Shown here: positions 12,788 to 31,359 of the stretch, one piece after another
Layout of the letters: every line of letters starts with the position of its first letter
Position numbering within the stretch: the stretch's first letter is position 1
Source: a virus
Reading direction: 5' to 3' (one strand)
Length of the DNA: 37,139 nt
Virus record (IMG/VR): IMGVR_UViG_3300028837_003362
Location: 1-37,139 of that record
Made by a program: the position numbers and the translations under genes
Notes under the pieces: model-generated
The model's database searches: none
The model's input: the letters and a program-made list of their open reading frames with translations, nothing else
What the model was told of the DNA's origin: nothing

Positions 12788-12824
12788 CGCGGGCTGATCA
12801 CTCTCGTTATTAGCCAAATTTTTT

Positions 12825-12874
12825 GAAAGGGTCTTTACCTGGCGCCAGGCCTTCGGTGAAGACCCTTTCTTTTT
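12825..12874 (+). terminator. rho-independent terminator
   Basis: A strong inverted repeat, GAAAGGGTCTT with AAGACCCTTTC, extends into ACC/GGT and closes on a loop containing TGGCGCCAG; it is followed by TTTTT at 12870-12874. It lies between the portal unit and the protease-scaffold gene. Partial termination here would set the ratio of portal to capsid transcripts. Confidence 0.85.
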
Positions 12875-12892
12875 GGCCCAGAGGAGAAGCAT

Positions 12893-14059: not shown

Positions 14060-14062
14060 AAC

Positions 14063-14763: not shown

Positions 14764-15993
14764 ATGATATCAATTAATGACATCCCGGCGCTTCGGTTGA
14801 CCGTGTTAAACAAGCTGGTCACGAAGTATATGGCTCCTCCGAACTTGATTCTGCGGAAGATGTTTGGTCGGCAGAATTATGAGACGGACAATATTGAATG
14901 GGAGTCCCAGATCGGCAGCAGGGGCATGACGCCCTTTGCCGGCGAGGATGCTCCGGCGCCGCAGGGTACCATGGTGGGCCTCGCGCAGAATTCTGCGCAT
15001 GCCGCATACTGGAAGGAGCGGTATTTTTTCGGCTCTTCTTTCCTGAACAACATTCGGGAGCCGGGGACTGATCGAAAACATCAAAAGGCAAAACGAACCC
15101 TGGGGGTTCAAACGCGAAACATGAGTAACCGGGCTTACCGTCGGGAAGAGTGGATGTTTGCGCAGATGCTTTGCAACGACGGTTTTACCTACAGCGACAA
15201 GAACGACAAGTACATTACCCTGGATTATGGAATCCCGGACGACAACAAGGTTGATCTTGGGGCTGATTATGAATGGGATACCGGGACCAAGAGGAATATT
15301 GTCAAGGATATCCTGGACGCGAATCTCGTCGTGTTAAACAACAATGCTGGAGTTTTAAGCCATTCTATTTTCACGACTGAGATTTTGCAGCTCATGATTC
15401 TTGACGACGGCCTCCAGACGCTTCTTATGAAGTCGTCATTTGGGAACGGTGACCTGTTCGCCAGGCCCATACCAGTACTGAGCGCTTTGCTTGGCATTGG
15501 TAATATGCACTTGTACGATGAGGCGTATCAGATTCGCGCGGTGTTGACATCCGCGCTTGCAGCTGGGGCCGGGCCACATACGGTCTATGTGAGCAGCACG
15601 GTAGATTTCGAGGTCGGTGGGACCCTGACCGTGCAGGACGTTTCGGCGGCAAAGGGCACGACCGAGACATTAACAATTACAGCGATTAGCTCTGACTCCG
15701 GAACAATTACCGCTACCGGGACGCTGACCTTGTCATACAAGGCCTCTGAGGACGTGGTCTACATGACAAAGAAATTTGTGCCTACCGATAAGTTCATTAT
15801 GTGGGCTGATTCGGTGGACGGGGAACCTATTGCCGAGTACATGGCTGCACCTCATATGTTGAGCAGGAAATGGGGACAGCAGGCTGACCGGAAGGAAAGA
15901 TGGGACCCCGATGGCGTGACTGTGCGAGTTTCAGATAAGGGCTTGCCTGTCTTGTACCATGAAGACGCTGTTTATCAATTAACCGTTACTTAG
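14764..15993 (+). CDS. major capsid protein (lambda E type)
   Basis: Predicted 409-residue HK97-fold capsid subunit. The N-terminus (LNKLVTKYMAPPNLILRKMF), GMTPFAGEDAPAPQG near 54-68, a middle of the E family (YDEAYQIR near 251-258), and KKFVPTDKFIMWAD near 336-349 match E-type capsids. Residues about 259-333 are an extra beta-rich, Thr/Ser-rich domain (TVYVSSTVDFEVGGTLTV, ETLTITAIS, TLTLSYKAS) inserted between conserved strands, probably exposed on the shell. GAAGGGGGTG precedes ATG 14764. Expected to be the most abundant virion protein. Confidence 0.88.
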   Translation: MISINDIPALRLTVLNKLVTKYMAPPNLILRKMFGRQNYETDNIEWESQIGSRGMTPFAGEDAPAPQGTMVGLAQNSAHAAYWKERYFFGSSFLNNIREPGTDRKHQKAKRTLGVQTRNMSNRAYRREEWMFAQMLCNDGFTYSDKNDKYITLDYGIPDDNKVDLGADYEWDTGTKRNIVKDILDANLVVLNNNAGVLSHSIFTTEILQLMILDDGLQTLLMKSSFGNGDLFARPIPVLSALLGIGNMHLYDEAYQIRAVLTSALAAGAGPHTVYVSSTVDFEVGGTLTVQDVSAAKGTTETLTITAISSDSGTITATGTLTLSYKASEDVVYMTKKFVPTDKFIMWADSVDGEPIAEYMAAPHMLSRKWGQQADRKERWDPDGVTVRVSDKGLPVLYHEDAVYQLTVT

Positions 15994-16007: not shown

Positions 16008-16478
16008 ATGGAGCATAAAAAAGGTCCACTTCCTAGCCCCGGGTTGTTGGCGCAGATAGCCGCCAACGCCATGGTACCGCTGATGGCCAAGTATTCTGGT
16101 GAGCTTACCAGTCATATCTGGAAAGATCCCCTGGGTGCCGCAATTCTTGGTGGCAGGGTGTCTGAGGTTTTTTTGTCAGTCGAGGCTAGTGGTAAAGACG
16201 ATTCCAATACGCTTCAAATTGAGGCGGATGTCCTTATCAATGGAACCTCTTGTCTGACGACTTTACCTGCGATTGCCCATGTATCAGGCGAGGCTAGCCA
16301 GCACAAAACCACGGCGGTGGTAGGTGATACCGGTATTACCCGGTCGGTTATGAACCCGGCTGCGAATGAGTTCAGCATAGGGGACGTGCTCTCTTATAGC
16401 ATGGAGTTGACGCGGACAGCATCGCCTACGACAGAAATCAAAAATCCGGTTATAGTTGTGAAACTTGAGCCGGCGTAA
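16008..16478 (+). CDS. hypothetical head protein
   Basis: Predicted 156-residue protein after the capsid gene with a strong site, GGAGGAGGTG. The N-terminus (KGPLPSPGLLAQIAANAM) is helical; the rest alternates in beta pattern with many Thr, Ser and Ala (LQIEADVLINGTSCLTTL, IVVKLEPA at the end). Probably a minor head or capsid-associated component. No family recognised. Confidence 0.6.
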   Translation: MEHKKGPLPSPGLLAQIAANAMVPLMAKYSGELTSHIWKDPLGAAILGGRVSEVFLSVEASGKDDSNTLQIEADVLINGTSCLTTLPAIAHVSGEASQHKTTAVVGDTGITRSVMNPAANEFSIGDVLSYSMELTRTASPTTEIKNPVIVVKLEPA

Positions 16479-16499: not shown

Positions 16500-17045
16500 A
16501 TGGATATCGAACGAGTACAATTACTAAGAACTTTGAAAACCGACAAGGTGTGGAAGAAGGGGACCATCTTTGATGCCAAAAAGGATGGTCGCCCGATTCC
16601 AGCTTTCGTAATCGCTGAGGTTAGGGCGAACAAGCCGACCGTAAAGGTGCTAAAGCCATCAGGCGGGTCGAGGGTAGAACCTGAGACCGCCAAGAAATGG
16701 CCGCCTTTAACCTTGGCAGAGCTGAAGGATGGGTACCCTGATCTGGTTGCTGAGCTCAAGGTCGAAGTCGAAATTGAGATAGAGAGCAGACCTTTAACCT
16801 TGGCAGAGTTGAGGGAGAGATACTCAGATCTGGTTGCTGAAATTGAGGAGGCTAAAGAGCCTGAGGCTAAAGAGCCTGAGGCTAAAGAGCCTGAGGCTAA
16901 AGAGCCTCTGACGGGGGCCGCCATTCTTCGCATGAACCACGGACAGGTTCTTGAGCTTTTTAAAGACGAGAAAGATTTTGAATCATTAAAAACCGAGAAA
17001 AGAACGGTTCTTGTCGGAATAGCCACAAAGAGGTTTGTTAAATGA
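16500..17045 (+). CDS. head-region protein with AKEPE repeats
   Basis: Predicted 181-residue protein with three visible parts. Residues 1-65 are a compact basic domain (KVWKKGTIFDAKKDGRPIP). Residues about 68-116 contain the motif PLTLAEL followed by YxDLVAE twice, an internal duplication. Residues about 117-136 are four tandem AKEPE units, a disordered acidic/proline linker. The last 45 residues are helical (ILRMNHGQVLELFKDEKDF). GGGAGG precedes ATG 16500, and the stop overlaps the next start. Its place after capsid suggests a capsid or connector accessory protein. Confidence 0.6.
   Translation: MDIERVQLLRTLKTDKVWKKGTIFDAKKDGRPIPAFVIAEVRANKPTVKVLKPSGGSRVEPETAKKWPPLTLAELKDGYPDLVAELKVEVEIEIESRPLTLAELRERYSDLVAEIEEAKEPEAKEPEAKEPEAKEPLTGAAILRMNHGQVLELFKDEKDFESLKTEKRTVLVGIATKRFVK
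16848..16907 (+). repeat. four tandem 15-bp repeats
   Basis: GAGGCTAAAGAGCCT occurs four times without a gap (16848, 16863, 16878, 16893). All copies are identical, so they arose recently by slippage. Each adds EAKEP to the protein. Copy number is likely variable between strains. Confidence 0.95.
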
Positions 17046-17540: not shown

Positions 17541-18155
17541 GTGTCGATAGGGTCTAAGCTTAAAACGAAAGTTTATAAGAAGCTGGGGACAGCTTTTACT
17601 ATAATCAGGGGTAGCGGCAATGTTACCGGCGAATACCTGGATTATGAAATAAATAAACAGGTTACGAAGCCGTTCATTCGGGCCTTTTTTCTTGAGGCCG
17701 AGCTGTCTTATGACACCGAGGCTGTTGTCGGCGACGTGGTTCAGTTTGACGATGAGCGCGTTTTCTTGGTGATGAACAAGACGCCTGAGCAATTTAGAAA
17801 TGCGCCGATTTTACAGGGATGCGTTTTTTATAAATGTAATGTCTCGGGTGAAATTCTGCGATCTTCAGAGGCCCGGAGTACCCAGACATACCACAAAGAA
17901 CAAAGCTGGGAGACCATCCGCGAGGATTGTTACGCCCTTCAGACTGAATCCCTGTTCGGCCATGAATTAGACTCTGATCAGGAGCTGGGGATGATGGGTC
18001 TTAAGAAAGACGAGCTCTACATTCCTTCTTCTTTCGATATCCGGGTGAATGATAGGTACCAATCTGCAAGCGGTGAGTATTATCGGGTGGAAGTCGTAAA
18101 GAAAAGGCGTTTTGCTGGGGTGGATGTATGTGAGATAGGAGAGGATACCAGATAG
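17541..18155 (+). CDS. putative head-completion protein
   Basis: Predicted 204-residue protein starting at GTG 17541, eight bases after AAGAGGG. Beta-rich segments (EAVVGDVVQFDDERVFLVMN, then GEYYRVEVVKKRRFAGVDVC at the end) resemble the small barrel of head-tail stopper proteins, whose C-terminal strand pattern ends similarly. It follows the adaptor candidate, so a stopper or joining role is likely. The stop overlaps the next GTG. Confidence 0.5.
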   Translation: MSIGSKLKTKVYKKLGTAFTIIRGSGNVTGEYLDYEINKQVTKPFIRAFFLEAELSYDTEAVVGDVVQFDDERVFLVMNKTPEQFRNAPILQGCVFYKCNVSGEILRSSEARSTQTYHKEQSWETIREDCYALQTESLFGHELDSDQELGMMGLKKDELYIPSSFDIRVNDRYQSASGEYYRVEVVKKRRFAGVDVCEIGEDTR

Positions 18156-18355
18156 TGTTAGCTGGAAAAATCATAAAACTTACTTGGTTAGGCGACCACT
18201 GGAGGTTGAATATTGATGGGATGATAAAAATTTTCACCAGTGATCATGCCATGAATATTTGGCTTGTTGATATTCTTGATAAAGTCAAGGATTTAGGGAA
18301 AAAGAAACTCTTACTCGACGACCTTAACAAATTCCTTATTATGGGGGAACATTGA
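18155..18355 (+). CDS. small hypothetical protein
   Basis: Predicted 66-residue protein starting at GTG 18155, with AGGAGAGG ten bases upstream. Composition is hydrophobic and basic (LTWLGDHWRLNIDGMIKIF, then DKVKDLGKKKLLLDDLNKFL). It is the last gene before the glycan cassette and overlaps its first gene by four bases, so the cassette is translationally coupled to the head genes. Confidence 0.55.
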   Translation: MLAGKIIKLTWLGDHWRLNIDGMIKIFTSDHAMNIWLVDILDKVKDLGKKKLLLDDLNKFLIMGEH

Positions 18356-20385
18356 AAAAAATTCTTTTTGTAGGTGATCATCCTCTTGCCATGTCCGGCA
18401 ACGGGAATATGATGGCCGCGGTCCTCTCTCAGGTTGATATGGCCAAGTATCAAGTTTCTTGTTTTGCAGCTGGGCCGTCGTCCGTAACTGTGAAATCCAT
18501 GCGCCCGTGGCCGTTTTTGCTTTTTGATTGGACCAATAGGCCTGAGGGCGACGTTGTTGCCAAGCTTCTAAAAATTCTTCAGACGGTTGAATTTGATGTA
18601 CTGTTAATGGTGGGGATAGATCTATGGCAATATGCCAGCATCTTTCCGCAGATTGATGAGATTAGAAGGCAAAGAGGTTTTAAATGGGCAGCCATATTCC
18701 CCTACGATTTACAGCAATTGAGAAATGACTGGATCGATTTAATGTGGGTTTTGGATTTTCCGCTGGTTTATTCCAAGTATGGCTTGAAGATGTTGAAGGA
18801 TCATGTCCCGGGAATTAGGTATTTCAGGCCGCCTCTTCATAATGCCAACCTTTTTTGTCCGTCTGCTGAGGATGATAGGGCCAAAGATAGGCGCGTGTTG
18901 TTCCCGACTATCCAGGACGATGCTTTGATCTTCGGTTTTGTCGGGAAGAATCAATTTAGGAAGGGTATCCCTCGACTACTTAAAGCATTTATGGAAGCCA
19001 AGGAACGAGTTCCAGGTATTATTCTTTACCTGCATACCGAGCTTAACGGGAAGCTCAATTTAAAGCAAATGGCCAGAGATTATGGTGCCGGTACCGGTGA
19101 TTTAACAGCGAAAGAGGAAAACAAAAAGTGTTCCGCAAGCCGAATGGTCAAAGTTTATAACAGCATAGACTGTCTTGTGAATTGTACCTTTCAGGAGGGT
19201 CTTTCTTGGACTCCCCTCGAGGCGATGCTATGTGGGACCCCGGTGATTGCTTCAGACACTACTGCACAGACTGAACTTGTTGAGGGAGCCGGGAGATTGG
19301 TCCCAGTGATTGAACGGGAATACGTCCCAGTTTTAACTCAATCCGGGAGATCTTTTGTAGACGCCAAGGCTTGTTCTGTAGGGGGCATACGAGAGGCCAT
19401 AGTAACGGTTGCCAAAGATGCTGATCTTAGAGAGAAAATGCGGGGGGATGGGATAAGGAGAGCCAAAAGGTGGCTTGCGGGGGTGTCTGATATCAATCCA
19501 TTTTTGGCCGAAGCAACAAAGAAAGAAACCGTGACCGTCCAAAGCAAAATCAATAAGATTCTTTTCATTCAACATTCTGCGGCCGGCGACGTGTTAATGA
19601 CGACTCAATGCTTAAAGGGAATTAAGGAGCGGCACAAAGGCCTGGAGTTATGCTATATGACCCAACCTCAGTATGCCGATATCGTTGCTGGGAATCCACA
19701 CGTTGATGAGATTGTGCCGTGGAAACCCGAAGAAGGTCCAAGGTATGAAGTTCTTTACAATCCTCACGGAGACCACATTTTACGGGGCGGATTTAATTCT
19801 CTTGATGTGCCGCTTCATTCTATGTACCCGCATTTTTGCCGAGTGGAGCCTGACGAAATATTCATCGAGCAGGTACCATTGACCGGGGTTGAATTACCCG
19901 AAGAATACATCGTTGTTCATACGACCGGGGGAGATCCGGAATATCGGGTGTATCCATATATGGACATTGTGTTGAAGGGCATTGGCCTGCCGGCGGTTCA
20001 GCTGGGTTCATCTCTCGACGTTGCTTGTCATGGGGCAGCAATGGATTTTCGAAACAAGCTTACTTTTCGTGAGTCAGCATGGGTCGTAGCGCATGCCAAG
20101 GGGGCGATAGTTGTGGATAGCTTTATGAGTCATTTGTGTGGAGCCCTTGGGATACCGGTGGTGGTTTTATATGGTCCGGCTCCGGCACGCGTTGTCGGGC
20201 CCCGTATTCAAAATGGTGGTGGTTATGTTGCCATGGAGCCCAATATGCTGGATGTCTGTAAATCAATGACTCGATGTTGGGGTTCTCGGAATAGAATGGG
20301 AGTCAATAAATGCGCTTCGCCGTGCATAAAAACATTGAATCCGCTGTCTGTGAAAAAGGCTTTTTTGAACTTGATCGAACAATAA
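18352..20385 (+). CDS. two-domain glycosyltransferase: GT4-type fused to GT9-type
   Basis: Predicted 677-residue fusion. Residues 1-390 form a GT-B glycosyltransferase: ILFVGDHPLAMSGNGNM at the N-terminus, GFVGKNQFRKGIPRLLKAF, and the donor-site motif EGLSWTPLEAMLCGTPVIAS near 285. Residues about 398-677 form a second GT-B unit of the GT9 (heptosyltransferase) type: ILFIQHSAAGDVLMTTQCLKG, YIVVHTTGGDPEYR, and VVDSFMSHLCGALGIPVVVL near the C-terminus. Such a protein could add two consecutive sugars. Start is TTG 18352, overlapping the previous stop, with GGGGGAAC upstream. First gene of the cassette. Acceptor unknown. Confidence 0.85.
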   Translation: MKKILFVGDHPLAMSGNGNMMAAVLSQVDMAKYQVSCFAAGPSSVTVKSMRPWPFLLFDWTNRPEGDVVAKLLKILQTVEFDVLLMVGIDLWQYASIFPQIDEIRRQRGFKWAAIFPYDLQQLRNDWIDLMWVLDFPLVYSKYGLKMLKDHVPGIRYFRPPLHNANLFCPSAEDDRAKDRRVLFPTIQDDALIFGFVGKNQFRKGIPRLLKAFMEAKERVPGIILYLHTELNGKLNLKQMARDYGAGTGDLTAKEENKKCSASRMVKVYNSIDCLVNCTFQEGLSWTPLEAMLCGTPVIASDTTAQTELVEGAGRLVPVIEREYVPVLTQSGRSFVDAKACSVGGIREAIVTVAKDADLREKMRGDGIRRAKRWLAGVSDINPFLAEATKKETVTVQSKINKILFIQHSAAGDVLMTTQCLKGIKERHKGLELCYMTQPQYADIVAGNPHVDEIVPWKPEEGPRYEVLYNPHGDHILRGGFNSLDVPLHSMYPHFCRVEPDEIFIEQVPLTGVELPEEYIVVHTTGGDPEYRVYPYMDIVLKGIGLPAVQLGSSLDVACHGAAMDFRNKLTFRESAWVVAHAKGAIVVDSFMSHLCGALGIPVVVLYGPAPARVVGPRIQNGGGYVAMEPNMLDVCKSMTRCWGSRNRMGVNKCASPCIKTLNPLSVKKAFLNLIEQ

Positions 20386-20407
20386 TCCGAAAGGAAGGGG
20401 AAATAGT

Positions 20408-21139
20408 ATGATCATACTTTTACAGTCACTTAATGAGGAAAAAATGGTAGAGCCCGTCATTGGTGATTTCTATGATTGCGACTGGGTATCCCGGATCATT
20501 GTAATCGATGGTGGTAGCCAGGACTTTACGGTTTCGAGAATTATGCGGTTCGGTAAGAAGTGCTCGGTTTATCACCATCATTATGATCGTAAATATCATT
20601 CTGCTCAAAGTATGCAGCGCAATATCTCACTGTCTTATGTCCCACTTGGCGAGATTTGTTTTATACTCGATTTCGATGAGAAAATGTCTGATGACCTGAA
20701 AGCCTTTCTTGCTGATGTAGACAAGTATGGGATGCCAGAGGGGTCGGATGTTGTGCATGTTTCCAGAATCTCATATGAATCTATGAGACACGAAGATTCA
20801 CCGTTTGCTTTATTGGATGAGCAGGGATTCCCGATTCCCTCTCATACCATTGGGCAGTATCCCGATTTTCAATCGAGGCTGATTAAGCGTAACAATGAGA
20901 TATTTTTCATTAATTCTCCGCATCATATTTTGATAGGCGGGAAAAAACAAATCTCGCGCGAGGATACAGACATCATTCATTATCACGGCAAGACTGACGC
21001 AAGGGACCGGGAGAATATCGAGATTTTGTGGGCATATACGCAGGCCCGGCGAAAAGAGCTGGGTCTTGCTCCGGAAGTATTTGAAGCAAAATTGAAGCCC
21101 GAGTTTGCCGAATATGGGAGTCCTGGATATTGGAAATGA
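20408..21139 (+). CDS. GT2-type glycosyltransferase
   Basis: Predicted 243-residue GT-A glycosyltransferase. It has the family order: IILLQSLNEE, VIDGGSQDFT near 33-41, and a metal-binding DFD at 88-90 (CFILDFDEKM), where the classical SDGS is replaced by IDGGS. Shorter than many GT2 enzymes but the core is complete. No membrane helices, so it is cytoplasmic and uses nucleotide sugars. GGAAGGGG precedes ATG 20408. The stop overlaps the aminotransferase start as ATGA. Confidence 0.75.
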   Translation: MIILLQSLNEEKMVEPVIGDFYDCDWVSRIIVIDGGSQDFTVSRIMRFGKKCSVYHHHYDRKYHSAQSMQRNISLSYVPLGEICFILDFDEKMSDDLKAFLADVDKYGMPEGSDVVHVSRISYESMRHEDSPFALLDEQGFPIPSHTIGQYPDFQSRLIKRNNEIFFINSPHHILIGGKKQISREDTDIIHYHGKTDARDRENIEILWAYTQARRKELGLAPEVFEAKLKPEFAEYGSPGYWK

Positions 21140-22266
21140 TCAGTTTGTTTAAGCCGCACATGGGAGACGAGGAACTGAATAGCCTGAAAGATATTTTTAA
21201 ATCAGGCTGGATCGGATTGGGTCCAAAGACTGAACGGTTTGAAAAGGAGTTCGCAGAATACGTTGGTTGTAGGTATGCCGTGGGGCTTAATTCTGCAACC
21301 GCTGCGCTGGATCTGTCCTTGAAGTTGTTGAATATTGGTCATGGTGATGAGGTCCTGGTGCCGACCGTAACATTTGTTTCGACCGCGCATGTGGTGAAAT
21401 ATAATTTAGCGGATCCTATATTTGTAGATGTAGATCAGGATTTATTGATTGACCCGGAAGATCTTAAGCGAAAAATTACTCCAAGGACAAAGGCGATTAT
21501 CCCCGTTCATTACGCCGGCAGGCCCGTAGACATGGATAAATTGTGGGAAATCACGACCCAAAGCGACATTCCCATTATAGAGGATGCCGCCCATGCTTGT
21601 GGATCTGTTTACAAAGGAAATAAATGCGGGAGCCTTGGCACAATAGGATGTTTTAGCTTCCATGCTGTAAAGAACTTGGCTATGGGAGACGGCGGAGCCA
21701 TTACTACGAACAGCAAAGAATTATACGAGAGAGCAAAAAGACTCCGCTGGTTGGGGATTGACAAGTCTACGTGGGCCAGGAACGATGAAAACAAAAGTTA
21801 CTGGTGGGAGTATTCAGTTGGTGAGGTTGGGTTAAAATGCCACATGAACGACATAGCGGCCTCGATAGGCTTGGTCCAATTATCAAAACTTGATCGAATG
21901 AATGCTCGGCGCAGAGAAATAGCTGAAAAGTACATGAAGGGTTTTGAGGATTTATCTAGAGTGGTAACTCCGGTGATGGATACAGATGATTCCACATCCT
22001 CTTGGCATATATATTGTGTAAAATGTCAGCAGAGAAATGAACTAAGTATTTATTTGAGCAAGAAAGGAATAGCAACCGGGGTTCATTACAAACCCATTCA
22101 TTTGTATAAATGCTATGGGAATACTCCGAGTTTGCCAAAAGCTGAGAAGTATTTTGAGCAAATATTATCGTTACCCATGCACCCGGGGTTGACGGAGACC
22201 GAAGTTAACGCAGTGATTGACGAAATTCATTCTTTTTACATAATGATGGACTATGGCATAAAATGA
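21136..22266 (+). CDS. DegT/DnrJ/EryC1/StrS-family sugar aminotransferase
   Basis: Predicted 376-residue PLP enzyme that transfers an amino group to a keto sugar nucleotide. Diagnostic parts: GLGPKTERFEKEFAEYVG at 27-44, NSATAALDL at 52-60, PTVTFVSTAH, IEDAAHACGS at 148-157, and SFHAVKNLAMGDGGAI at 174-189, where K179 is the Schiff-base lysine. VHYKPIHLY lies near the C-terminus. Full length for the family. It implies synthesis of an amino sugar, with the GNAT enzyme of this cassette as the likely acetylation step. ATG 21136 overlaps the upstream stop. Confidence 0.93.
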   Translation: MISLFKPHMGDEELNSLKDIFKSGWIGLGPKTERFEKEFAEYVGCRYAVGLNSATAALDLSLKLLNIGHGDEVLVPTVTFVSTAHVVKYNLADPIFVDVDQDLLIDPEDLKRKITPRTKAIIPVHYAGRPVDMDKLWEITTQSDIPIIEDAAHACGSVYKGNKCGSLGTIGCFSFHAVKNLAMGDGGAITTNSKELYERAKRLRWLGIDKSTWARNDENKSYWWEYSVGEVGLKCHMNDIAASIGLVQLSKLDRMNARRREIAEKYMKGFEDLSRVVTPVMDTDDSTSSWHIYCVKCQQRNELSIYLSKKGIATGVHYKPIHLYKCYGNTPSLPKAEKYFEQILSLPMHPGLTETEVNAVIDEIHSFYIMMDYGIK

Positions 22267-23369
22267 CAACATCATTCGATCCAGAGACGGGAATTTTATA
22301 CGGTGGCAAGTATAGCTTGGATGGAGAGTTAATAAAAGCCATCTGCGCTACATTTTACCCTGTTAAGGTTGCTGATTTGGGTTGCGGTGAGGGGGCTTAC
22401 TGTAAGGTTTGTTCAGAGCATGGATGTAGGGCTGACGGGTACGAAGGGAACTCGGTGGCCTGTCAGAATGCGGTTTGTGATAGCATAGAATGTGTAGATT
22501 TATCAAAACCGGCAGAACCGAAAGATGACTATGACCTGGTTCTTTGTTTGGAATTGGGAGAACACATACCAAAAAGATGCCAGGACGTATTTATTGATAA
22601 CCTGGCCAGGTTTTCTAAAGATGTGCTTATTTTAAGTTGGGCCGTTCCGGGTCAGGGAGGGACGGGTCACGTAAATTGTTTGTCAAACGAGACTGTTATT
22701 GGATTAATGAGAGATAAAAGCTTTGATTTTGACAAAAGCATGTCGGAATATCTTAGACAAAATTCAAAACTGTCGTGGTTTAAAAATACCTTAATGGTGT
22801 TTAGAAGAGCATATGATATTTTTGATAGTTCAGTGCGCTATTCTAACCATCTTGATTTTATGCCCCGCGTTGTCAATCACCTCGGTATTAAATTTATGGC
22901 CGAGATAGGAGTATTGAACGGGTCGCTGTCGGGGACTATTTTGAATAAATGTCCTCAAGTCAGAACTTTATATCTTATCGATCCTTGGCAGTCATTTACG
23001 TCTAGCTGTACGCAAGAAATTTGGGATAAGAGATATGCAGACGTAGAAGTTAAAATGAAACAATATGGTGATAGGGCTAATATTTTAAGATTAACATCAC
23101 TCGAAGCGGCAAAATTATTTGAACCGGAAAGCCTTGATTTGGTTTATATCGACGCTAACCATTCATTTAAGCACGTGGATGAAGACATAAAGGCATGGTG
23201 GCCTAAGATACGATCAACCGGTTATCTTGCAGGGCACGATATCGGGGACTCTCGGTGGCCAGGCGTTTTGAAGGCTGTTGAGGCTAATTTTGGCAAGCAA
23301 TACTTTTGCGGGCATCCCATGACTAATTGGGATGGTGTCTGGATTGTAAAAAAGGACGCAGTAGAATAA
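22263..23369 (+). CDS. fusion of two class I methyltransferases
   Basis: Predicted 368-residue protein with two AdoMet-binding domains. The N-terminal one (residues 1-180) has VADLGCGEGAYC at about 36-47 and DLVLCLELGEHI near 90. The C-terminal one (about 200-368) resembles the Methyltransf_24 family: MAEIGVLNGSLSG near 212, LYLIDPW, LDLVYIDANHSFKHVDEDI and GYLAGHDI. Substrates are probably glycan hydroxyl or carboxyl groups, judging by neighbours. The start overlaps the aminotransferase stop, and the stop overlaps the next ATG. Confidence 0.8.
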   Translation: MTTSFDPETGILYGGKYSLDGELIKAICATFYPVKVADLGCGEGAYCKVCSEHGCRADGYEGNSVACQNAVCDSIECVDLSKPAEPKDDYDLVLCLELGEHIPKRCQDVFIDNLARFSKDVLILSWAVPGQGGTGHVNCLSNETVIGLMRDKSFDFDKSMSEYLRQNSKLSWFKNTLMVFRRAYDIFDSSVRYSNHLDFMPRVVNHLGIKFMAEIGVLNGSLSGTILNKCPQVRTLYLIDPWQSFTSSCTQEIWDKRYADVEVKMKQYGDRANILRLTSLEAAKLFEPESLDLVYIDANHSFKHVDEDIKAWWPKIRSTGYLAGHDIGDSRWPGVLKAVEANFGKQYFCGHPMTNWDGVWIVKKDAVE

Positions 23370-24259
23370 TGAGAATTTTGATAACGGGGGGAACCGGGTT
23401 GCTTGGTGTTGCTTTGCAACGGTCGGCGCCTACTGGCAGTCAGGTATTTTCAATTTATTCTTCTGGTCGCTCTTTGTCTGAACAGCTTCTGTTCCCTATA
23501 GTTGTCTCTAATGTGGTTAATAGAGAGAAGATGCAAGCGATTTTTGAATGGACCCTGCCTGACGTTGTGATTCATACGGCTGCTATTGGGAGCGTTGATT
23601 TTGCTGAAAAGAATCGTGAGCAGGCTAGAAAAGTCAATGTAGGTGGGACAAGAGTTGTTGCTGAGCTGTGCCAAGTTTTTAAGTCCCGACTTGTTTATAT
23701 ATCTTCAAATGCTGTTTTTGATGGTCGTGCTCCGTTTTATTCCGAGGCTGCGCCAGTCAACCCGATCAATTATTACGGGCAATTAAAAGTTGAAGCCGAA
23801 AATATTGTTCGTGAAAGTAGTATATCATGGATCATCATTCGTCCTATTTTGATGTATGGTTGGCCATATCCTGGTGGACGGGGCAATCCAGTGGTACGGT
23901 GGGTGCGCTCCCTGGAAGATGGTGAATTTATAAAGGTTGTTAATAATGTATTTAGCAAACCCCTCCCTGCGTGGTCGTGTGCAGAGGTTGTATGGGAAGC
24001 GATTCGCCAATGCCGAACCGGTGGAATATACCATGCTGCAGGGAGAGATCATTTATCCCTTTATCAGTTTGCCTTACGAGTTGCGAAAATATTTGATTTG
24101 GATTCAAGATTAATTATTCCGGTCCTGGATTCTTATTTCCCCGAGCTTGCACCACGTCCAAAAGATACGTCTTTTGAAACATTAAAGATGGAGAACGAAC
24201 TGGGCGTTAAAGCTATCGGGGTTGAGGAAGGGCTTCTTCGCATGAGAGACCGACGATGA
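23369..24259 (+). CDS. NAD(P)-dependent sugar reductase/epimerase (RmlD-like SDR)
   Basis: Predicted 296-residue extended short-chain dehydrogenase. The nucleotide-binding motif GGTGLLG is at residues 7-13, VVIHTAAIG at 66-74, VYISSNAVFDG at 109-119, and the catalytic pair Y136 and K140 in YYGQLK. The layout is closest to dTDP-4-dehydrorhamnose reductase-like enzymes. It would reduce or epimerise a nucleotide sugar for the cassette's transferases. ATG 23369 overlaps the upstream TAA. No RmlA, B or C partner is present here. Confidence 0.85.
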   Translation: MRILITGGTGLLGVALQRSAPTGSQVFSIYSSGRSLSEQLLFPIVVSNVVNREKMQAIFEWTLPDVVIHTAAIGSVDFAEKNREQARKVNVGGTRVVAELCQVFKSRLVYISSNAVFDGRAPFYSEAAPVNPINYYGQLKVEAENIVRESSISWIIIRPILMYGWPYPGGRGNPVVRWVRSLEDGEFIKVVNNVFSKPLPAWSCAEVVWEAIRQCRTGGIYHAAGRDHLSLYQFALRVAKIFDLDSRLIIPVLDSYFPELAPRPKDTSFETLKMENELGVKAIGVEEGLLRMRDRR

Positions 24260-24963
24260 GCGATGTTACTATTCTTGTAGGGACATTAGATCCATATGAA
24301 GCAGCGTGGCCGGTTTTTTGTCATGGGATAGAAAAATATTGGCCGGATTGTCCCTGGCTTATTAAAGCCGCTACAAATTATCTCGATTTCCCTTGTGGTG
24401 AGGGCCTAAAAATTGGAGCTTATAAGAATTGGGCCAGGAATACTATATTAAGCTTGCAAAGATTAGACGCGCCAGTTGTTTTTTGGATGCTTGAGGACTC
24501 ATGGCTTACTGATTTTCCTAATACAGAAGCACTGAAACAATTTGCACAATATATTTTAGATGGCAAGACTGATTATATCAGGCTTATTAATTCGAAAGCA
24601 GTTAGGAGTGCCGGGCAGGCATCATTTGATGATAGGCTTTTTGTTTTTTCAGATAATTCTCGATACCGGGCTTCTCTTTGTCCGAGTATTTGGAATAGAC
24701 AAGCCTTTATCGATTTATTGAAGGATGGGGAGTCTGCATGGGACTTTGAAATAAAGGGCTCTGTGCGAAGTAGAGGGCATGTTTTTTGTTGTACGCTTGC
24801 CTGGGATTGGGTTTATCTCCCGATTGCTTTCCCGTCCAAAAATTCGGAGTGGTCCTGTACTCCAATTGGGCGTGGTAAGTGGACAGGAGTAGCGAAGAAA
24901 TACGTAGAGCGAGAAGGTTTATCGGTTGATTTTTCACGACGGCCTATTGATGGTGTAAAATGA
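24256..24963 (+). CDS. putative GT-A-like glycosyltransferase
   Basis: Predicted 235-residue protein starting MSDVTILVGTLDPYEAAWPV. The segment VVFWMLEDSWLTDFPN near 80 resembles the acidic metal site of GT-A enzymes, and ASLCPSIWNRQAFIDLL near 138 followed by SAWDFEIKGS matches uncharacterised glycosyltransferase-like proteins found in sugar clusters. It may be a divergent transferase; no classical DxD is seen. It overlaps genes on both sides. Confidence 0.5.
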   Translation: MSDVTILVGTLDPYEAAWPVFCHGIEKYWPDCPWLIKAATNYLDFPCGEGLKIGAYKNWARNTILSLQRLDAPVVFWMLEDSWLTDFPNTEALKQFAQYILDGKTDYIRLINSKAVRSAGQASFDDRLFVFSDNSRYRASLCPSIWNRQAFIDLLKDGESAWDFEIKGSVRSRGHVFCCTLAWDWVYLPIAFPSKNSEWSCTPIGRGKWTGVAKKYVEREGLSVDFSRRPIDGVK

Positions 24964-25064
24964 AGGATTATCTTAAAGATTCTACGGTTAAAAAAGTACA
25001 GGATGCAATGGTCGCTGAGATGGGTGATCTTCACGGATTATATACAAAGGGATACGATGTTTAA
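24960..25064 (+). CDS. 34-residue hypothetical protein
   Basis: A short frame starting ATGA-coupled at 24960 and ending inside the next gene's start. The product MKDYLKDSTVKKVQDAMVAE and so on is charged and helical. Its codons carry the next gene's ribosome site (AAAGGGAT). It may be a coupling peptide or a small real protein. Confidence 0.4.
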   Translation: MKDYLKDSTVKKVQDAMVAEMGDLHGLYTKGYDV

Positions 25065-25929
25065 GATACATTACAGGAATTTACATGGTACAACAAATCT
25101 TCCCTGGCAAAAAGCCTTTCGTAAACATGGGGAGTTATCATTAGGGAATATAAGTTCTGGTGGATTCCCTGACGAGATAGATCATCTTCATTTGGGCGGG
25201 AGCTGTAAAGGTGCTGCTTCAATCAGGGGCAATCCAATAACTGTAACTGATGTAAAAAAGGTTCAGTCAGATACAGGATGCGCGGTCAGTGTGTTTTTTG
25301 GCGATCCCGTGGCCTCAAGATTTAGATTTCATCACGATTTACTTGATGCGGATATCCCAAGATTAAAGGTTTATTCAGCGGCTTTATACGGGACTCCTAT
25401 GTGGAGGCCTGAGGTTACCTGGGTTCTGCACCCCACGGATGAAGACATTTTTAAATTGGTTGAGCATAAAGAGAATGATACTGTTTTATTTGTTGGCACG
25501 CTTACGCCGAATAGAAGAGAGGTGATTTCTGCTCTTCGTGCGGTCGGCATAAAAGTTGATGTCGTTGGTAACGGGGGGAATATTCCATCAAAGTTTGGGA
25601 AAGACCTTGTTAAACTATCCAGGAATTATTCGATAAGTATCGGTATCGCTTACGATGAGGATAGGCCGAAGACCAGGTACTCTTCTACGCGATTGCCGAA
25701 CGCCCTGGCAATGGGGTTGGTTTATATGGAATCCGATTTTGATTTGACCGGAGTTTTTTACCCAAGCGAGATTATTCAATGGCGCAGAATTACTGATTTG
25801 ATTTACAAGATCAGATACTACCAACGCAATATTGAAGGCGGTCGTAGAATTATGGAGAGAGGCCGTGCAAGAGTCATGGGGAATTGGACATTCAATAAAT
25901 TAGCTGAAAGATTTATAAGAGAAAAATGA
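25057..25929 (+). CDS. GT-B-type glycosyltransferase
   Basis: Predicted 290-residue protein. Its C-terminal half resembles CgeB/group 1 transferases: TVLFVGTLTPNRREVISAL near 147, VDVVGNGG, and YSSTRLPNALAMGLVYMESD near 205, the nucleotide-sugar binding loop. The N-terminal half is short, as in compact GT-B proteins. ATG 25057 is chosen over the upstream end of the frame because AAAGGGAT lies five bases before it. Acceptor unknown. Confidence 0.7.
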   Translation: MFKIHYRNLHGTTNLPWQKAFRKHGELSLGNISSGGFPDEIDHLHLGGSCKGAASIRGNPITVTDVKKVQSDTGCAVSVFFGDPVASRFRFHHDLLDADIPRLKVYSAALYGTPMWRPEVTWVLHPTDEDIFKLVEHKENDTVLFVGTLTPNRREVISALRAVGIKVDVVGNGGNIPSKFGKDLVKLSRNYSISIGIAYDEDRPKTRYSSTRLPNALAMGLVYMESDFDLTGVFYPSEIIQWRRITDLIYKIRYYQRNIEGGRRIMERGRARVMGNWTFNKLAERFIREK

Positions 25930-26000
25930 GACTGTTCGGAAGTATTGGTTTTTATAGACCGAAGACGCATGGGGCGCTTATGTGCGTACAAAAAAGATGA
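25926..26000 (+). CDS. 24-codon ORF, possible gene remnant
   Basis: A short frame coupled at both ends: its ATG overlaps the previous stop and its TGA overlaps ATG 25997. The product MRLFGSIGFYRPKTHGALMC and so on reads like the N-terminus of a longer protein that is no longer present. It could be a leader or the scar of a deleted gene. Confidence 0.35.
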   Translation: MRLFGSIGFYRPKTHGALMCVQKR

Positions 26001-26488
26001 TATTGCTTAGAGACATCAAAGAATCTGATTTAGAGAACTTGCGCCGATGGCGAATGTCTCCGGAGGTAACAAAATATCTATTTACAGACCCGGTTATAAC
26101 AGAAGAAGATCAGAAACGGTGGTACGAAGAAATGAAGAAGGGGGGCGATATTTATTGGGTCGTCAATTTTAAAGGTGTAGATATAGGATATGCCTCTTTG
26201 AACAGAATTGATACTCAAAGCAAAAGTGCTGACCCGGGGGTATATATTGGTGAGGCTGAATATCGCGGGGTCGGATTGGGCGGGGGTATATTAAAAATGG
26301 TTGAGGAGTATGCTTTCGAGGTCCAGAATTTGCGCAAGCTGTATGGCTATATTTTGTCCGGGAACCGTCCAGCCATAAAAATTTATATTAAGAATGGTTG
26401 GGTAAGAGAAGGTGTTTTGGAATCTCATATTGTAAAGCATGGCAAGCTGCATGACGTTGAAATAATGTCCCTGCTGAGGAGTCCATGA
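25997..26488 (+). CDS. GNAT-family N-acetyltransferase (sugar-modifying)
   Basis: Predicted 163-residue acetyltransferase using acetyl-CoA. Landmarks: LLRDIKESDLENLRRWR, WYEEMKKGG, VDIGYASLNRID, YIGEAEYRGVGLGGG (the acetyl-CoA loop, near 85-100) and GNRPAIKIYIKNGWVREG at the family C-terminus. The pattern matches PseH-like enzymes that acetylate the 4-amino group of a nucleotide amino sugar, which fits the aminotransferase upstream. ATG 25997 is preferred because it overlaps the previous stop; GTG 25982 is also in frame. Confidence 0.85.
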   Translation: MILLRDIKESDLENLRRWRMSPEVTKYLFTDPVITEEDQKRWYEEMKKGGDIYWVVNFKGVDIGYASLNRIDTQSKSADPGVYIGEAEYRGVGLGGGILKMVEEYAFEVQNLRKLYGYILSGNRPAIKIYIKNGWVREGVLESHIVKHGKLHDVEIMSLLRSP

Positions 26489-27351
26489 AAATAAAAATTG
26501 TTGCTCTTTCAGATGCCATGCGGAACATCAAAGATGGTGACTACTGGGTCAAAAAAGACCTTGAGGCAGAATTTGCAAAAAGAGGTTACGAGATAGTGGA
26601 TAGCAGGGCTGACTTAGATTTTTATTTATTTGGATTGTATACCTCTGCTCATCACATGTCGGCACCTCGAAGATTTTGTTGGGTATACTCACATCCGGAT
26701 TTGATAGGGAGAGATCAATGGCCTAATTTTGCAAAGCAGTTTGAACACATATTTGTTCTTTCAAGTGACTTTATCTTTAGTGAAAAGTTTAAAGGACACA
26801 AAGCTTCGGTGTTGCTTGGAGCTTCTTCAAAAGAATTTGTGCCCCGCAAAGAGATTAAATATGACATCGTCTTTGTGGGATCCATGAGGCATGGCAAAAG
26901 GCTGGATACGATAAGGCATCTTGTTGAATCTGATAAATATAAAATTTGTATTGCTGGTCTTGGATGGCCGAAGGCCTTGGGCAATCTAATAGAAAAAGTT
27001 GATTACAAGGGTGACTATGTTGACAATCACCTTTTAGGGAATCTTTTCAATCAGGGGTTGCTTTCATTTTATTCAGCTCATGAAGATATGCGGTCGGCCG
27101 GTTTTGTTGCTGTTCGAATCTTGGATATTTTTAGAAGTAGCGAGTGTTTATGTATATCAGACGAAAACGCAGGTCTTAAAGACATATTCAGGGCTATCCC
27201 AACATATGAGAATGTAAATGAATTAATGCTTAAGATAGATTGGTATTTAGAGCATTCAGTGGAACGCGCAATGGTTGCAGAACAATGCAGGCAGGACGCC
27301 GAGCAACACACCTTCGGTAGGGCTGTCACGGAGATTGAAAGATGGATATAA
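26485..27351 (+). CDS. CgeB-like GT-B glycosyltransferase
   Basis: Predicted 288-residue protein. YDIVFVGSMRHGKRLDTI near 130, ICIAGLGWP near 154, and the C-terminal DMRSAGFVAVRILDIFRSSE and LCISDENAGLKDIF pattern are typical of CgeB-like glycosyltransferases. The N-terminal half carries VALSDAMRNIKDGDYWVKKD and HPDLIGRDQWPNF. No membrane segment. It overlaps both neighbours by four to ten bases. Confidence 0.7.
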   Translation: MKIKIVALSDAMRNIKDGDYWVKKDLEAEFAKRGYEIVDSRADLDFYLFGLYTSAHHMSAPRRFCWVYSHPDLIGRDQWPNFAKQFEHIFVLSSDFIFSEKFKGHKASVLLGASSKEFVPRKEIKYDIVFVGSMRHGKRLDTIRHLVESDKYKICIAGLGWPKALGNLIEKVDYKGDYVDNHLLGNLFNQGLLSFYSAHEDMRSAGFVAVRILDIFRSSECLCISDENAGLKDIFRAIPTYENVNELMLKIDWYLEHSVERAMVAEQCRQDAEQHTFGRAVTEIERWI

Positions 27352-28070
27352 AAACCTGCTTTGCAATGGTTATAACTAGAAACTACCTTACCATGGCACA
27401 GGTGGCCCTGCGGAGTTTGCGATTAAATAGTGGGTTTGATATTCCATGCTATATATTTTGTACTGATAACGCGGATCCGAGTCAAGATTATCAATCAATA
27501 GATTACAGGACCGACGCACTTTTTGCCTTATATGACAATCTAATAATCCAAAAAGTAGATACGGAGAAATACAAACAGTATGGGAAGGAGTGGCCTGGTT
27601 ATTGGAGTCATGAAGTATTTAACATTAAGGGATATGATAGGGTAATTTTCAGCGATGCTGATGTTATTTGCCTTGGAAAATTAACCGACCTCCCCGTGGT
27701 TGATCTTGGGATGGTATTCGAAAATCCACGGAACCAGTTCTTTGCCGGTTTTCTTTCAGTTGGGAAGAAGTATCTTAATGCAGAAACGTACAATGCGGTT
27801 TTAAAACATCAAAAAAAACCTGGGACCTGGGGCCGGGATCAAGCTGTTTATAATGAATACTTTAAAAAAGGTGAAATAACAGAGCTCCCCGGCAAATATA
27901 CCACGGTGACAAATAAAAAATGTGATGATATCAGAATGTTGCATTATATTTTTAAGCCAGGCCCGACCTCAAGATTGTCTCCAGAATATCGTAAATTATG
28001 GAATGTTCATGCGTTAGCAGTAGACGAAGAGTTAAAGAAGGCCGGATTGTTTCAACAACCCTGCAAGTGA
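27342..28070 (+). CDS. GT8-type glycosyltransferase
   Basis: Predicted 242-residue GT-A enzyme of the glycogenin/LPS galactosyltransferase type. Its metal site is DAD at 105-107 in YDRVIFSDADVIC, and AGFLSVGKKYL, GRDQAVYNEYF and MLHYIFKPGP supply the remaining family landmarks (the last with the usual His before the C-terminus). It probably transfers glucose or galactose from UDP-sugar. It overlaps the preceding gene. Confidence 0.82.
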   Translation: MDIKTCFAMVITRNYLTMAQVALRSLRLNSGFDIPCYIFCTDNADPSQDYQSIDYRTDALFALYDNLIIQKVDTEKYKQYGKEWPGYWSHEVFNIKGYDRVIFSDADVICLGKLTDLPVVDLGMVFENPRNQFFAGFLSVGKKYLNAETYNAVLKHQKKPGTWGRDQAVYNEYFKKGEITELPGKYTTVTNKKCDDIRMLHYIFKPGPTSRLSPEYRKLWNVHALAVDEELKKAGLFQQPCK

Positions 28071-28085
28071 AGGGAGATCGATTCT

Positions 28086-28631
28086 ATGGCAATGACAGGA
28101 TTACAAACAGTTCTTGATAATATTAGGCCAAGCTTTGAGTACAATGTTTTGCATGTCGAAAAGTTTTTGATCGGTAAAGGCCTCGATATGGGCTGTGGTA
28201 ATTGCCCCTTGCTCAGAGGTGACTGCTTCCACGTAGACCAGGCCCCGCAGCCGATAGCCGCCGAACAGGTTGGCCAAGGCTGGGTTATTCGGGCGGATGC
28301 TGTAAAATTTGATCCTGGGTACAAGGTTGATTATGTATTTTCATCTCATATGGTTGAAGATCTTCCGACAAAACAGGCAATGATAGATTGCTTAAATGGG
28401 TGGGTTGAGTTGCTGAATCCGGGAGGGCATATCGTGCTTTTGATCCCTAACATGCAGGATAGGCTTTACCCTACGGTTGCCGAGGGCGGGAACCCGTCTC
28501 ACCGTATTGATGTCGGGGTTCCGTTTATAAATGAGATCGAACCTGATTTGAAAGATTTGAAGCTTATTCAGATTGATACCATCCCGCACAATAAGAGCTG
28601 TACGCTGGATGTGGTGTTTAAAAAAATATGA
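28086..28631 (+). CDS. class I SAM-dependent methyltransferase
   Basis: Predicted 181-residue methyltransferase. The AdoMet motif GLDMGCGNCPL is at 32-42, VDQAPQP supplies the acidic strand end, VDYVFSSHMVEDL lies near 83-95 and LLNPGGHIVLLIPNMQDR near 113-130. Proteins of this type often follow glycosyltransferases in O-antigen and phage clusters. GAAGGGAG precedes ATG 28086. It closes the cassette; its stop overlaps the next gene as ATGA. Confidence 0.8.
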   Translation: MAMTGLQTVLDNIRPSFEYNVLHVEKFLIGKGLDMGCGNCPLLRGDCFHVDQAPQPIAAEQVGQGWVIRADAVKFDPGYKVDYVFSSHMVEDLPTKQAMIDCLNGWVELLNPGGHIVLLIPNMQDRLYPTVAEGGNPSHRIDVGVPFINEIEPDLKDLKLIQIDTIPHNKSCTLDVVFKKI

Positions 28632-28819
28632 AATCACGAAAAGGAATAACCCGCAGAGAAAAGGCTGTGATCTTGGAAGCTGTTAAAAAGCATTCAGGTG
28701 AAGACGCAGAGATCGAGGTTGAGACTGAACGGCGCACTTATCGAATTAAAATAGAAAACGGCGTAGCGATCCTGCCTTCAGGTAAGGCGTTTGAAGTTGA
28801 TGCGAGACACATATGCTGA
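28628..28819 (+). CDS. small basic hypothetical protein
   Basis: Predicted 63-residue protein: a basic N-terminal helix (KSRKGITRREKAVILEAVKK) followed by beta strands (AEIEVETERRTYRIKIENGV). It is coupled to the last cassette gene. It is unclear whether it belongs to the cassette or to the neck genes. Not recognised. Confidence 0.55.
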   Translation: MKSRKGITRREKAVILEAVKKHSGEDAEIEVETERRTYRIKIENGVAILPSGKAFEVDARHIC

Positions 28820-29208
28820 CTTTATATGTTTTCCCATGCGACAATCCAAAGCTTCACGATCCAGAGAGGGCAAAAGCTTCTTTCGGGGATGCCGTGCAAT
28901 TCAGCCAAGCACTGAAAGATCGACGCCTGGACTTAGTATGCAATCACCAGATCCCATGGTACGGGTATGTTTTCTCTGATGAGTATCTCGACGATAAAGC
29001 GAAAGCAGCTCTACCAACTTTTTTGGCAGTCGGGGGTTTTGATTGCTTGATTCTAATGAAAAAGATTATGGTTGATGGAGAAATGAGAGTCACACAGGCA
29101 CCAAGGATATTCAAGAAAGATGTGAGGCTTGCTGAAAATACTCATATTCCGGAGGGCCACGATTCGCTTATCTTTGAACGGATGCTCGATGGCTGGATAC
29201 GCTCATGA
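28813..29208 (+). CDS. hypothetical neck-region protein
   Basis: Predicted 131-residue soluble protein starting MLTLYVFPCDNPKLHDPERA. It overlaps both neighbours. It lies directly before a minor tail/neck gene, so a structural or assembly role is likely, but no family is recognised. Confidence 0.55.
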   Translation: MLTLYVFPCDNPKLHDPERAKASFGDAVQFSQALKDRRLDLVCNHQIPWYGYVFSDEYLDDKAKAALPTFLAVGGFDCLILMKKIMVDGEMRVTQAPRIFKKDVRLAENTHIPEGHDSLIFERMLDGWIRS

Positions 29209-29720
29209 TTGCGATGAGGCTTGATAAAACCGATTTTGCCAGGGTCATGAAAGCCCTGAAGTCGATTCGGTATAAATTGAAGTGGCTGACTACGGTCGAT
29301 GGCGGCGAATTGAATCGACGATGCTCGATTGGCTATGCGCAGCTTCTTGTTAGAAATATTATGACTTTTCAGAGGCCAAGCCCTCCATATACCCCGAGAT
29401 ATAGAACGTGGAAATTTGAATATGGAAAAATGGGGTATCCGGCTCCATGGAGGCTTTACGGTGATCTTGTCAGGAATATTATTAATTTTAGGTCCGGCGC
29501 TGGTTGGATGGGTGGCATCCCCGCAAATGTGTATGACCAGGGGGGCAAATCGTGGGGCGGGAGGGGCGATAAAGGCAAGCCCAAGAGGATAGCCATGTAT
29601 GCAGCCGTTAATGAGCTTAGGCGCCCTGTTTTTGGCCCTACCATGGAAGAATACGCTCAGGACGCATGGCCTAAGCAGGGATCGCTTGCTTTGAAGGAAG
29701 TTGGGGGGGCTTGGAGGTAA
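29205..29720 (+). CDS. putative minor tail / neck protein (gp10-like)
   Basis: Predicted 171-residue basic protein. The segment RPSPPYTPRYRTWKFEYGKM followed by LYGDLVRNIINFRSG fits the tail-completion or virion-morphogenesis type proteins found between connectors and tail terminator. The C-terminus (YAQDAWPKQGSLALKEV) is helical. ATG 29205 overlaps the preceding stop. Confidence 0.55.
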   Translation: MIAMRLDKTDFARVMKALKSIRYKLKWLTTVDGGELNRRCSIGYAQLLVRNIMTFQRPSPPYTPRYRTWKFEYGKMGYPAPWRLYGDLVRNIINFRSGAGWMGGIPANVYDQGGKSWGGRGDKGKPKRIAMYAAVNELRRPVFGPTMEEYAQDAWPKQGSLALKEVGGAWR

Positions 29721-30648: not shown

Positions 30649-31359
30649 ATGATAAAGGGGTCGAAACATTCCGTGGAAACAAGAAAAAAGATATCAGAGA
30701 TTCAGCGGGGCAGAAAAACCTCTATTGAGACTAGAGAAAAAATGTCAAAAGCTCAGCGGGGGAGAAAAGTTTCCGCCGAAGGTAGAAAGAGAATGTCAGA
30801 AGCTCAGTGTGGAAGAAAAAGGGCGTCTATTGAAGCGAGAAGAAAGATGTCAGAATCTCGTACAGGCAAAAAGGCTTCTGCTGAAACCAAAAGAAAGATG
30901 TCAGAATCCGCGCGTGGCAGGAAGTGTTCAGCGGAGACGAGAAAGAAAATATCAAGAATTCATAAAGGAAAAGTGGTTTCTATTGAAGCGAGAAGAAAAA
31001 TGTCGAAGGCCCAGACTGGTAAAAAACTTTCTGCTGAACATAGAAAGAGAATATCGGAAGCTCAGCGTGGGGGGAAGCATTATAACTGGAAAGGTGGTAT
31101 TTCTTGTGAGCCCTATTGTGATGCTTGGGCAGATCAAGAATATAAGGAATCCATTAAAGAGCGTGATGGTTTCCAATGCCAAAATCCGGAATGTTGGGGA
31201 AAAGATACCATGCTCACGGTTCATCATATTAATTATATTAAGAAGGATTGTCATCCTGATAATCTGATTACACTGTGCAGATCTTGTAATTCAAGAGCTA
31301 ATACTAACCGAGATTATTGGAGTAGTTTGTATCAAGGCATGAGGAAAAAGGTAGCATGA
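30649..31359 (+). CDS. HNH homing endonuclease with eight NUMOD3 repeats
   Basis: Predicted 236-residue nuclease, very basic. Residues 4-140 are eight NUMOD3 units of 17-18 residues (pattern GRKxSxExRxKMSEAQR), known DNA-binding modules of homing endonucleases. Residues about 140-236 form an HNH domain: YNWKGGIS, the zinc pair QCQNPEC, the catalytic VHHINYI, and LCRSCNSRAN. Typical family members carry one to three NUMOD3 units, so eight is many. It lies between tail genes with no relation to assembly, so it is a selfish mobile gene. ATG 30649 follows the terminator stop by a few bases. Confidence 0.92.
   Translation: MIKGSKHSVETRKKISEIQRGRKTSIETREKMSKAQRGRKVSAEGRKRMSEAQCGRKRASIEARRKMSESRTGKKASAETKRKMSESARGRKCSAETRKKISRIHKGKVVSIEARRKMSKAQTGKKLSAEHRKRISEAQRGGKHYNWKGGISCEPYCDAWADQEYKESIKERDGFQCQNPECWGKDTMLTVHHINYIKKDCHPDNLITLCRSCNSRANTNRDYWSSLYQGMRKKVA
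30658..31068 (+). repeat. 51-bp coding repeats (NUMOD3 array)
   Basis: Eight consecutive units of 51 bases (one has 54) encode the NUMOD3 modules. They are diverged in sequence but keep codon phase, so they are old protein-level repeats, not recent slippage. Confidence 0.85.

Follow-up and report, generated by a model that had tools for sequence, protein, structure and literature searches.

The window analysed here is the entire IMG/VR virus record IMGVR_UViG_3300028837_003362 (37,139 bases), and this work concerns a cassette of 11 tightly packed genes (18352-28631, all on the plus strand) that lies within it between a conserved gene in the head-completion position (17541-18155) and a gene of the tail completion or Neck1 family (29205-29720). 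The cassette holds five recognised glycosyltransferases (GTs), a DegT-family aminotransferase, a PseH-type GNAT acetyltransferase, an RmlD-like reductase, two methyltransferase genes and one gene without a family, with an intergenic spacing of -10 to +52 bases (in many cases -4). A glycan-building cassette between head and neck genes had been proposed in a first-pass annotation made from the sequence alone; the list of open reading frames, Pfam and PHROG confirm both the reading frames and their placement.

The first gene (18352-20385), conserved in the relatives described below, encodes a GT4-GT9 fusion with both Pfam domains above their cut-offs, and the part of the cassette that is exchanged begins with the second, a GT2-like glycosyltransferase (20408-21139) whose Pfam match is weak and below the cut-off and which matches a beta-1,4-GT PHROG (6e-10). 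The product of 21130-22266 is a DegT/PseC-like nucleotide-sugar aminotransferase (Pfam, 4e-117), for which PseC is the best NCBIfam match but, at 328.6 bits against a cut-off of 423.5, falls short, so that it is filed as DegT family only. A two-domain S-adenosylmethionine (SAM) methyltransferase (22263-23369; Methyltransf_23 and Methyltransf_24 in Pfam) precedes the RmlD-like sugar reductase (23369-24259; Pfam 8e-54, NCBIfam rmlD below its cut-off). The start of the latter had been placed at 23327, and is most likely the ATG at 23369, to judge from the TAATG junction. The first-pass annotation had counted up to three further GTs, two of which are supported by Pfam matches to Glyco_trans_1_2 above the cut-off (25003-25929, 1.1e-7; 26485-27351, 4.9e-10), whereas the third (24256-24963) matches no Pfam or PHROG family and is kept as a possible GT. 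The PseH-type sugar N-acetyltransferase (25982-26488) scores 98.1 bits against the NCBIfam equivalog cut-off of 93.1. The last two genes encode a GT8-family glycosyltransferase (27342-28070; Pfam 9e-8, above the cut-off) and a second SAM methyltransferase (28086-28631), a weak assignment (Pfam 1e-3, just under the cut-off), with which the exchanged part ends. A complete pseudaminic acid pathway is not present, since PseB, PseG, PseI and PseF were not found among the window cassette genes with Pfam and NCBIfam.

The fusion protein is 677 amino acids long, with GT4 and GT9 in a single chain (Pfam), and its predicted fold consists of two GT-B domains (mean predicted local distance difference test score, pLDDT, of 87). 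For the GT4 half, which is the part covered by the structural alignment, the closest solved fold is the GT B736L of the chlorella virus PBCV/NY2A (PDB 3oy2; Z 36.2, root-mean-square deviation 2.9 over 362 residues, 15% identity), a protein that differs from ours in its eukaryotic virus origin, its single domain and its putative function. The E-x7-E signature of GT4 is retained (E282 in 20 of 20 homologues, E290 in 19 of 20) and, together with the GT-B fold, makes gene 1 a member of that family. In the other half, the N-terminal GD motif (G412 D413) is found in all 20 of the 20 homologues, and the Pfam score of 25.1 against a cut-off of 22 bits places it in the GT9 heptosyltransferase family, with heptose as a putative donor. 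A single-sequence scan found no relatives of the fusion; a profile scan found them.

A search with the capsid protein gave ten relatives, onto which the window genes were mapped, and in these the 17541 head gene is followed by the GT4-GT9 fusion and a GT2 gene, with the Neck1-family gene 8-16 kb further on. Profile searches with the capsid, the fusion and the protein encoded at 16008-16478 (discussed below) gave about 240 loci and records, which fell into 112 sequence-distinct clusters when grouped by their 17541 gene at 95%. The presence or absence of the cassette between its flanks, put forward at the outset as a check, can be read directly from these: the fusion follows the same head gene in 65 of the 112 (with a gap of at most 100 bp in 60 of those 65), and 33 have an empty site, with the neck gene 60-727 bp past the head gene and no cassette. 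Where both ends are available (34 cassette-bearing clusters), the head-to-neck distance is 2.4-16.4 kb, with a median of 7.1 kb. At the short end of this range, the neck gene is 2.4-2.5 kb downstream in locus L191 (labelled Melioribacter) and in the pair L247/L248, the site in L191 having no glycan gene other than the fusion. In 44 of 49 clusters, gene 1 is followed by a GT2-family gene at a distance of no more than 1.5 kb. An assembly artefact, or a host O-antigen locus joined to the phage by error, had been named as the two ways in which the cassette could prove spurious, and its G+C content (about 40-46%) is indeed below that of the head genes. Both were ruled out, since many metagenomes have yielded contigs, dozens in all, with identical junctions, with flanks and cassette on one contig in 34 sequence-distinct relatives, and we give this explanation practically no credence; the gene order, which recurs in dozens of independent contigs, is beyond chance.

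Some variants of the site were also seen. Locus L147 (IMGVR_UViG_3300009506_000026) has no GT4-GT9 gene but carries another insertion at this site, its Neck1 gene lying 3.2 kb past the head gene, and extra DNA separates the head gene from the fusion in L244, L249 and L240 (1.3-1.7 kb) and in L231 (0.7 kb). Capsid relatives sit in three unrelated metagenome-assembled genomes, including L191, with its cassette of GT4-GT9 only, and L193, with an empty site; naming a host from these contigs (L191-L193, labelled Melioribacter, Alphaproteobacteria and Paludibacteraceae) was abandoned, the labels being too mixed and possibly mis-binned.

Comparison of the sequences indicates that gene 1 stays and evolves with the phage backbone and that all the genes after it are swapped between relatives. 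The relatives G011 and G006 have backbones that are 80% identical and none of their 8-9 cassette genes in common (at 60% identity); G011 and the window, with backbones 60% identical, have 7 of 9-10 in common. In this second pair, the cassette proteins are 68-78% identical (77% for the GT2 and 72% for the methyltransferase at 28086-28631), against 52% for the fusion and 27-43% for the genes directly after the cassette, and these steps in identity point to exchange boundaries after gene 1 and after 28086-28631. Additionally, the GT2 tree groups the window with G011 and G013 (100% support), a clade that is rejected by both the fusion gene (p 1e-5) and the backbone (p 0.0002).

The contents were surveyed in 149 cassette proteins from 24 relatives. 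Radical SAM proteins number 24, with a B12-binding domain in 11, and the other families include GT2, GT4, GT8, several methyltransferase families (O-methyltransferases among them), pyruvyl transferase, GDP-mannose dehydratase and carbamoyltransferase (a NodU-like example is L203:13481-15070). The radical SAM proteins that were examined resemble B12-binding radical SAM families, and none passes an NCBIfam cut-off. Proteins of this B12-binding kind, about 400 amino acids long, are common in the relatives, often as the final cassette gene (L206:16934-18136, L220:15242-16450, L214:11617-12849 and L216:18300-19514), and absent from the window. Such variable content, the empty sites and a nearby homing-endonuclease gene would also be expected of a mobile cargo island (a "moron") at a permissive site, with no function tied to the virion, but this is improbable given a constant first gene with intact catalytic signatures at one site in 65 clusters, the predominance of glycan-type enzymes, and the absence of integrase or transposase from the families listed for the surveyed proteins. 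HNH/homing-endonuclease-like genes are found around the head-neck region at differing sites, in the window at 30649-31359 (called via PHROG) and in the relatives G006 (12570-13412), G009 (2602-3567) and G013 (13366-14217), these last three called via partial similarity.

A glycan added to virions or to the host surface had been suggested from the start, and several signals narrow this choice in favour of the virion. Remodelling of the host surface, in which lipopolysaccharide (LPS), capsule or another surface glycan would be altered in order to block superinfection or the sticking of progeny to debris, is the classic role of phage GTs (serotype conversion), draws on families that are common in LPS and O-antigen synthesis (GT8, GT9, PseH and RmlD), would be compatible with structural timing if superinfection exclusion were late, and is the purpose proposed for the GTs of the pelagimyophage island (PMC7029224). 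Nearly all the cassette proteins are, however, soluble: hydrophobic segments reaching 1.8 occur in none of the window cassette genes and in 4 of 159 genes of the relatives, which argues against lipid-linked surface polysaccharide synthesis. No initiating phosphoglycosyltransferase, Wzx flippase, Wzy polymerase or GtrA/GtrC-like protein was recognised in the cassettes examined, which do not have the make-up of an O-antigen or capsule locus, and no GtrA/GtrC-like membrane protein was found in the window cassette and no integrase in the window, which sets the cassette apart from serotype-converting gtr cassettes. Integrase is present in 4 of 20 records and absent from 16, including all five records of 80-92 kb (G021-G025). 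The lack of membrane and lipid-carrier genes and of a link to lysogeny, and the strict linkage to head genes, favour a virion target, and remodelling of the host surface is, for the same reasons, rather unlikely.

The phage DNA is another conceivable target, as virus-encoded GTs can build diverse DNA glycans (Pyle et al. 2024, in the account given by PMC12619734), and GTs with modifying enzymes could protect it against nucleases by glycosylation. Against this, no thymidylate synthase/hydroxymethylase-family gene was found in 20 records (of which some may be fragments and five are of 80-92 kb), in a search whose control gave 9 of 14. A Tet/JBP dioxygenase was not found in the same 20 either, but that search matched no control genome. 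Sugar-nucleotide synthesis together with several GTs in a structural block would, moreover, be an unusual layout for DNA hypermodification, which we regard as very unlikely.

The first-pass annotation had the cassette transcribed with the capsid genes. The continuous coupling of the genes makes this plausible, and expression would then be late; the promoter scan was uninformative (33 promoter-like sites against 33.2 expected, the chance level), and terminator-like sites were near chance as well (20 against 15.9 +/- 4.1 expected). The small genes that had been noted as coupled to both ends of the cassette are present and specific to the lineage: the one joining the left flank to the cassette (18155-18355, plus strand) has a homologue in G001 only, and the one after the cassette (28628-28819, plus strand) has none among the relatives mapped with the window genes.

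The proposed acceptor would be a protein, and one candidate is encoded directly after the capsid gene (16008-16478, plus strand). It is a Ser/Thr-rich protein of 156 amino acids, predicted to be a jelly-roll, and the alignment of its family has an N-terminal GPxPS motif and an invariant INGT. For the AlphaFold2 model (mean pLDDT 72), similar folds were those of TNF/C1q, of viral jelly rolls and of the capsid chain 7eel_H of cyanophage Pam1 (Z 7.0), and since every fold match lies under Z 8 the jelly-roll assignment is suggestive only; a PDB profile search with the family returned nothing. The protein is found in 47 cassette-bearing clusters and in 0 of 34 empty-site clusters, and in four further cassette-bearing clusters the same slot is taken by small proteins of other kinds that carry a GPWP motif. 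We take its role as a surface or decoration protein and glycan acceptor as a lead, and not as a result. The gene that follows it (16500-17045 in the window; 9169-9528 in G002, 11592-12056 in G006, 7063-7428 in L194, and others) encodes a protein with about 50 conserved N-terminal residues and a C-terminal end that varies, by eye, between C2H2 zinc-finger-like, helix-turn-helix-like and Lys-rich tails.

The neighbouring genes fix the position of the cassette in the structural block. On the left (plus strand throughout) are a lambda-D-like head decoration protein (14063-14746), a weak call (Pfam HDPD, E 0.005; PHROG head decoration, E 0.0013), the major head protein (14764-15993; phrog_29, E 2.8e-26), which serves as an anchor gene, and the conserved left flank (17541-18155), which, across the 112 clusters, stands before either the cassette or the empty site. 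On the right, also on the plus strand, the conserved first gene after the cassette (28813-29208) has homologues that precede the Neck1 gene in most relatives, and the gene at 29205-29720 belongs to a family in which three tail completion or Neck1 PHROGs match 8, 5 and 4 of 20 members, the window's own copy matching none of the three. The identities first given to the flanks thus hold on the neck side by PHROG matches in relatives, and for 17541-18155 "head completion" is a label from synteny only (its best PHROG match is a head-tail adaptor, E 0.026); PDB profile searches with the 17541, 29205, 30171 and 17042 families gave no usable match. The other anchor genes are the terminase-like protein (7818-9680), the head maturation protease (12893-14059; PHROG) and the tape measure (33049-34236). 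Elsewhere in the window, 2413-4041 encodes a DNA N4/N6 methyltransferase of 542 amino acids, with matched blocks near both ends and a long middle between them, and no transfer RNAs were found in the 37,139 bases. The capsid, terminase, 16008, GT2, GT8 and 26485 GT proteins have no relative among 50,697 phage records, which indicates a lineage without a close cultured relative in that collection.

To our knowledge, virion glycosylation has been directly shown in few phages only, chiefly mycobacteriophages. Freeman et al. 2023, as cited in PMC12363180, reported that Che8 (gp110), Corndog and Myrna use phage GTs to glycosylate their capsid or tail tube, and the window lineage shares with gene sets of this kind the presence of GTs in the structural block. 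In Corndog, a cluster O phage, an O-methyltransferase, two GTs and a putative N-acetylglucosaminyltransferase (gp35-gp38) lie between portal and protease; infected cells contained all four enzymes, none of which was identified in particles, and capsid modification was suggested (PMC4351075). The likeness lies in GT and O-methyltransferase genes within the block of head genes, whereas Corndog has four genes at a portal-protease site and no named sugar-nucleotide synthesis genes (PMC4351075), and the window lineage has up to about 16 kb between the head-completion position and the neck, a constant GT4-GT9 gene and swapped contents. No mycobacteriophage match was obtained with the GT4-GT9, GT2, GT8 and 26485 GT proteins by tblastn against the 50,697 phage records, where two accessions tried for Corndog gave no record. 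In pelagimyophages, as in cyanomyophages, several GTs and deoxy-sugar genes are carried by a hypervariable island of the structural region that directly precedes a neck gene; in pelagimyophages it always lies between VrlC and the neck gene gp14, and its authors propose modification of the host O-chain (PMC7029224). Those phages are T4-like, and their island has a mean of 44.6 kb, carries tail fibres and has no constant GT4-GT9 first gene described (PMC7029224). The capsid gene of the Microcystis phage Mae-JY09 (PP395641) is separated from the head-tail adaptor gene by a GT4 gene, whose product has 26% identity with the GT4 half, but this is an unrelated phage with a single recognised GT and no annotated sugar-nucleotide genes. 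Bacterial O-antigen and flagellin glycosylation loci (PseC/PseH, RmlD and WecE/ArnB-type enzymes) resemble the cassette in enzyme families and in the logic of locus swapping, and differ in that the cassette lies in a phage structural block, without lipid-carrier, flippase, polymerase or ligase genes. The placement, which had been called unusual, is thus less exceptional than supposed, and the Corndog, pelagimyophage and Mae-JY09 precedents mean that neither the site nor the idea is unique; what is new here is the constant GT4-GT9 anchor, the size of the locus and the documented swapping.

Based on these observations, we consider it probable that the cassette is a late locus for glycan synthesis and transfer that decorates the phage's own particle and is organised like a bacterial serotype locus. 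In such a mechanism, host precursors would be turned into a nucleotide-linked, acylated amino-deoxy sugar by the soluble DegT aminotransferase, PseH-type acetyltransferase and RmlD-like reductase. In the cytoplasm, the constant GT4-GT9 fusion would start a sugar on a head or neck protein, or extend one; chain growth would fall to the variable GTs (GT2, two GT4-like and GT8), and capping to the methyltransferases, joined in relatives by B12-radical SAM enzymes and carbamoyl- and pyruvyl-transferases. The acceptor might be the putative jelly-roll protein (16008-16478) or, alternatively, the capsid or another head protein. Recombination between relatives, replacing everything after gene 1, would change the glycan and keep the acceptor, and the purpose may be to evade phage-binding factors or to alter the particle surface. 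Several points weigh against this reading. The substrate of these enzymes could instead be a host glycan or a small molecule, and the record is incomplete, the final gene of the window being truncated by its end. The link between the 16008 protein and the cassette comes down largely to a single event at clade level, with 2 and 3 changes on the tree, the baits used to gather the two sets were these very genes, and nine cassette-bearing clusters are without a 16008-type protein, which therefore cannot be the sole acceptor; its proposal as a sole, statistically supported acceptor was dropped for these few changes and these nine clusters.

A more specific picture can be offered tentatively, in which exchangeable cassettes with a constant dual-domain GT would build chemically elaborate glycans, modified in some relatives by B12-radical SAM, carbamoyl and pyruvyl chemistry, on a dedicated jelly-roll protein of the head surface, so that the virions of close relatives would be antigenically or adhesively distinct. 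A constant anchor enzyme with horizontally exchanged contents is the typical mark of diversifying selection acting on a surface sugar. If that sugar is on the particle, these phages would show a serotype-like switching of their own, and one would then ask what recognises bare phage capsids in nature. The relatives would also be a natural collection of GTs, methyltransferases and B12-radical SAM enzymes, which may share one defined acceptor.

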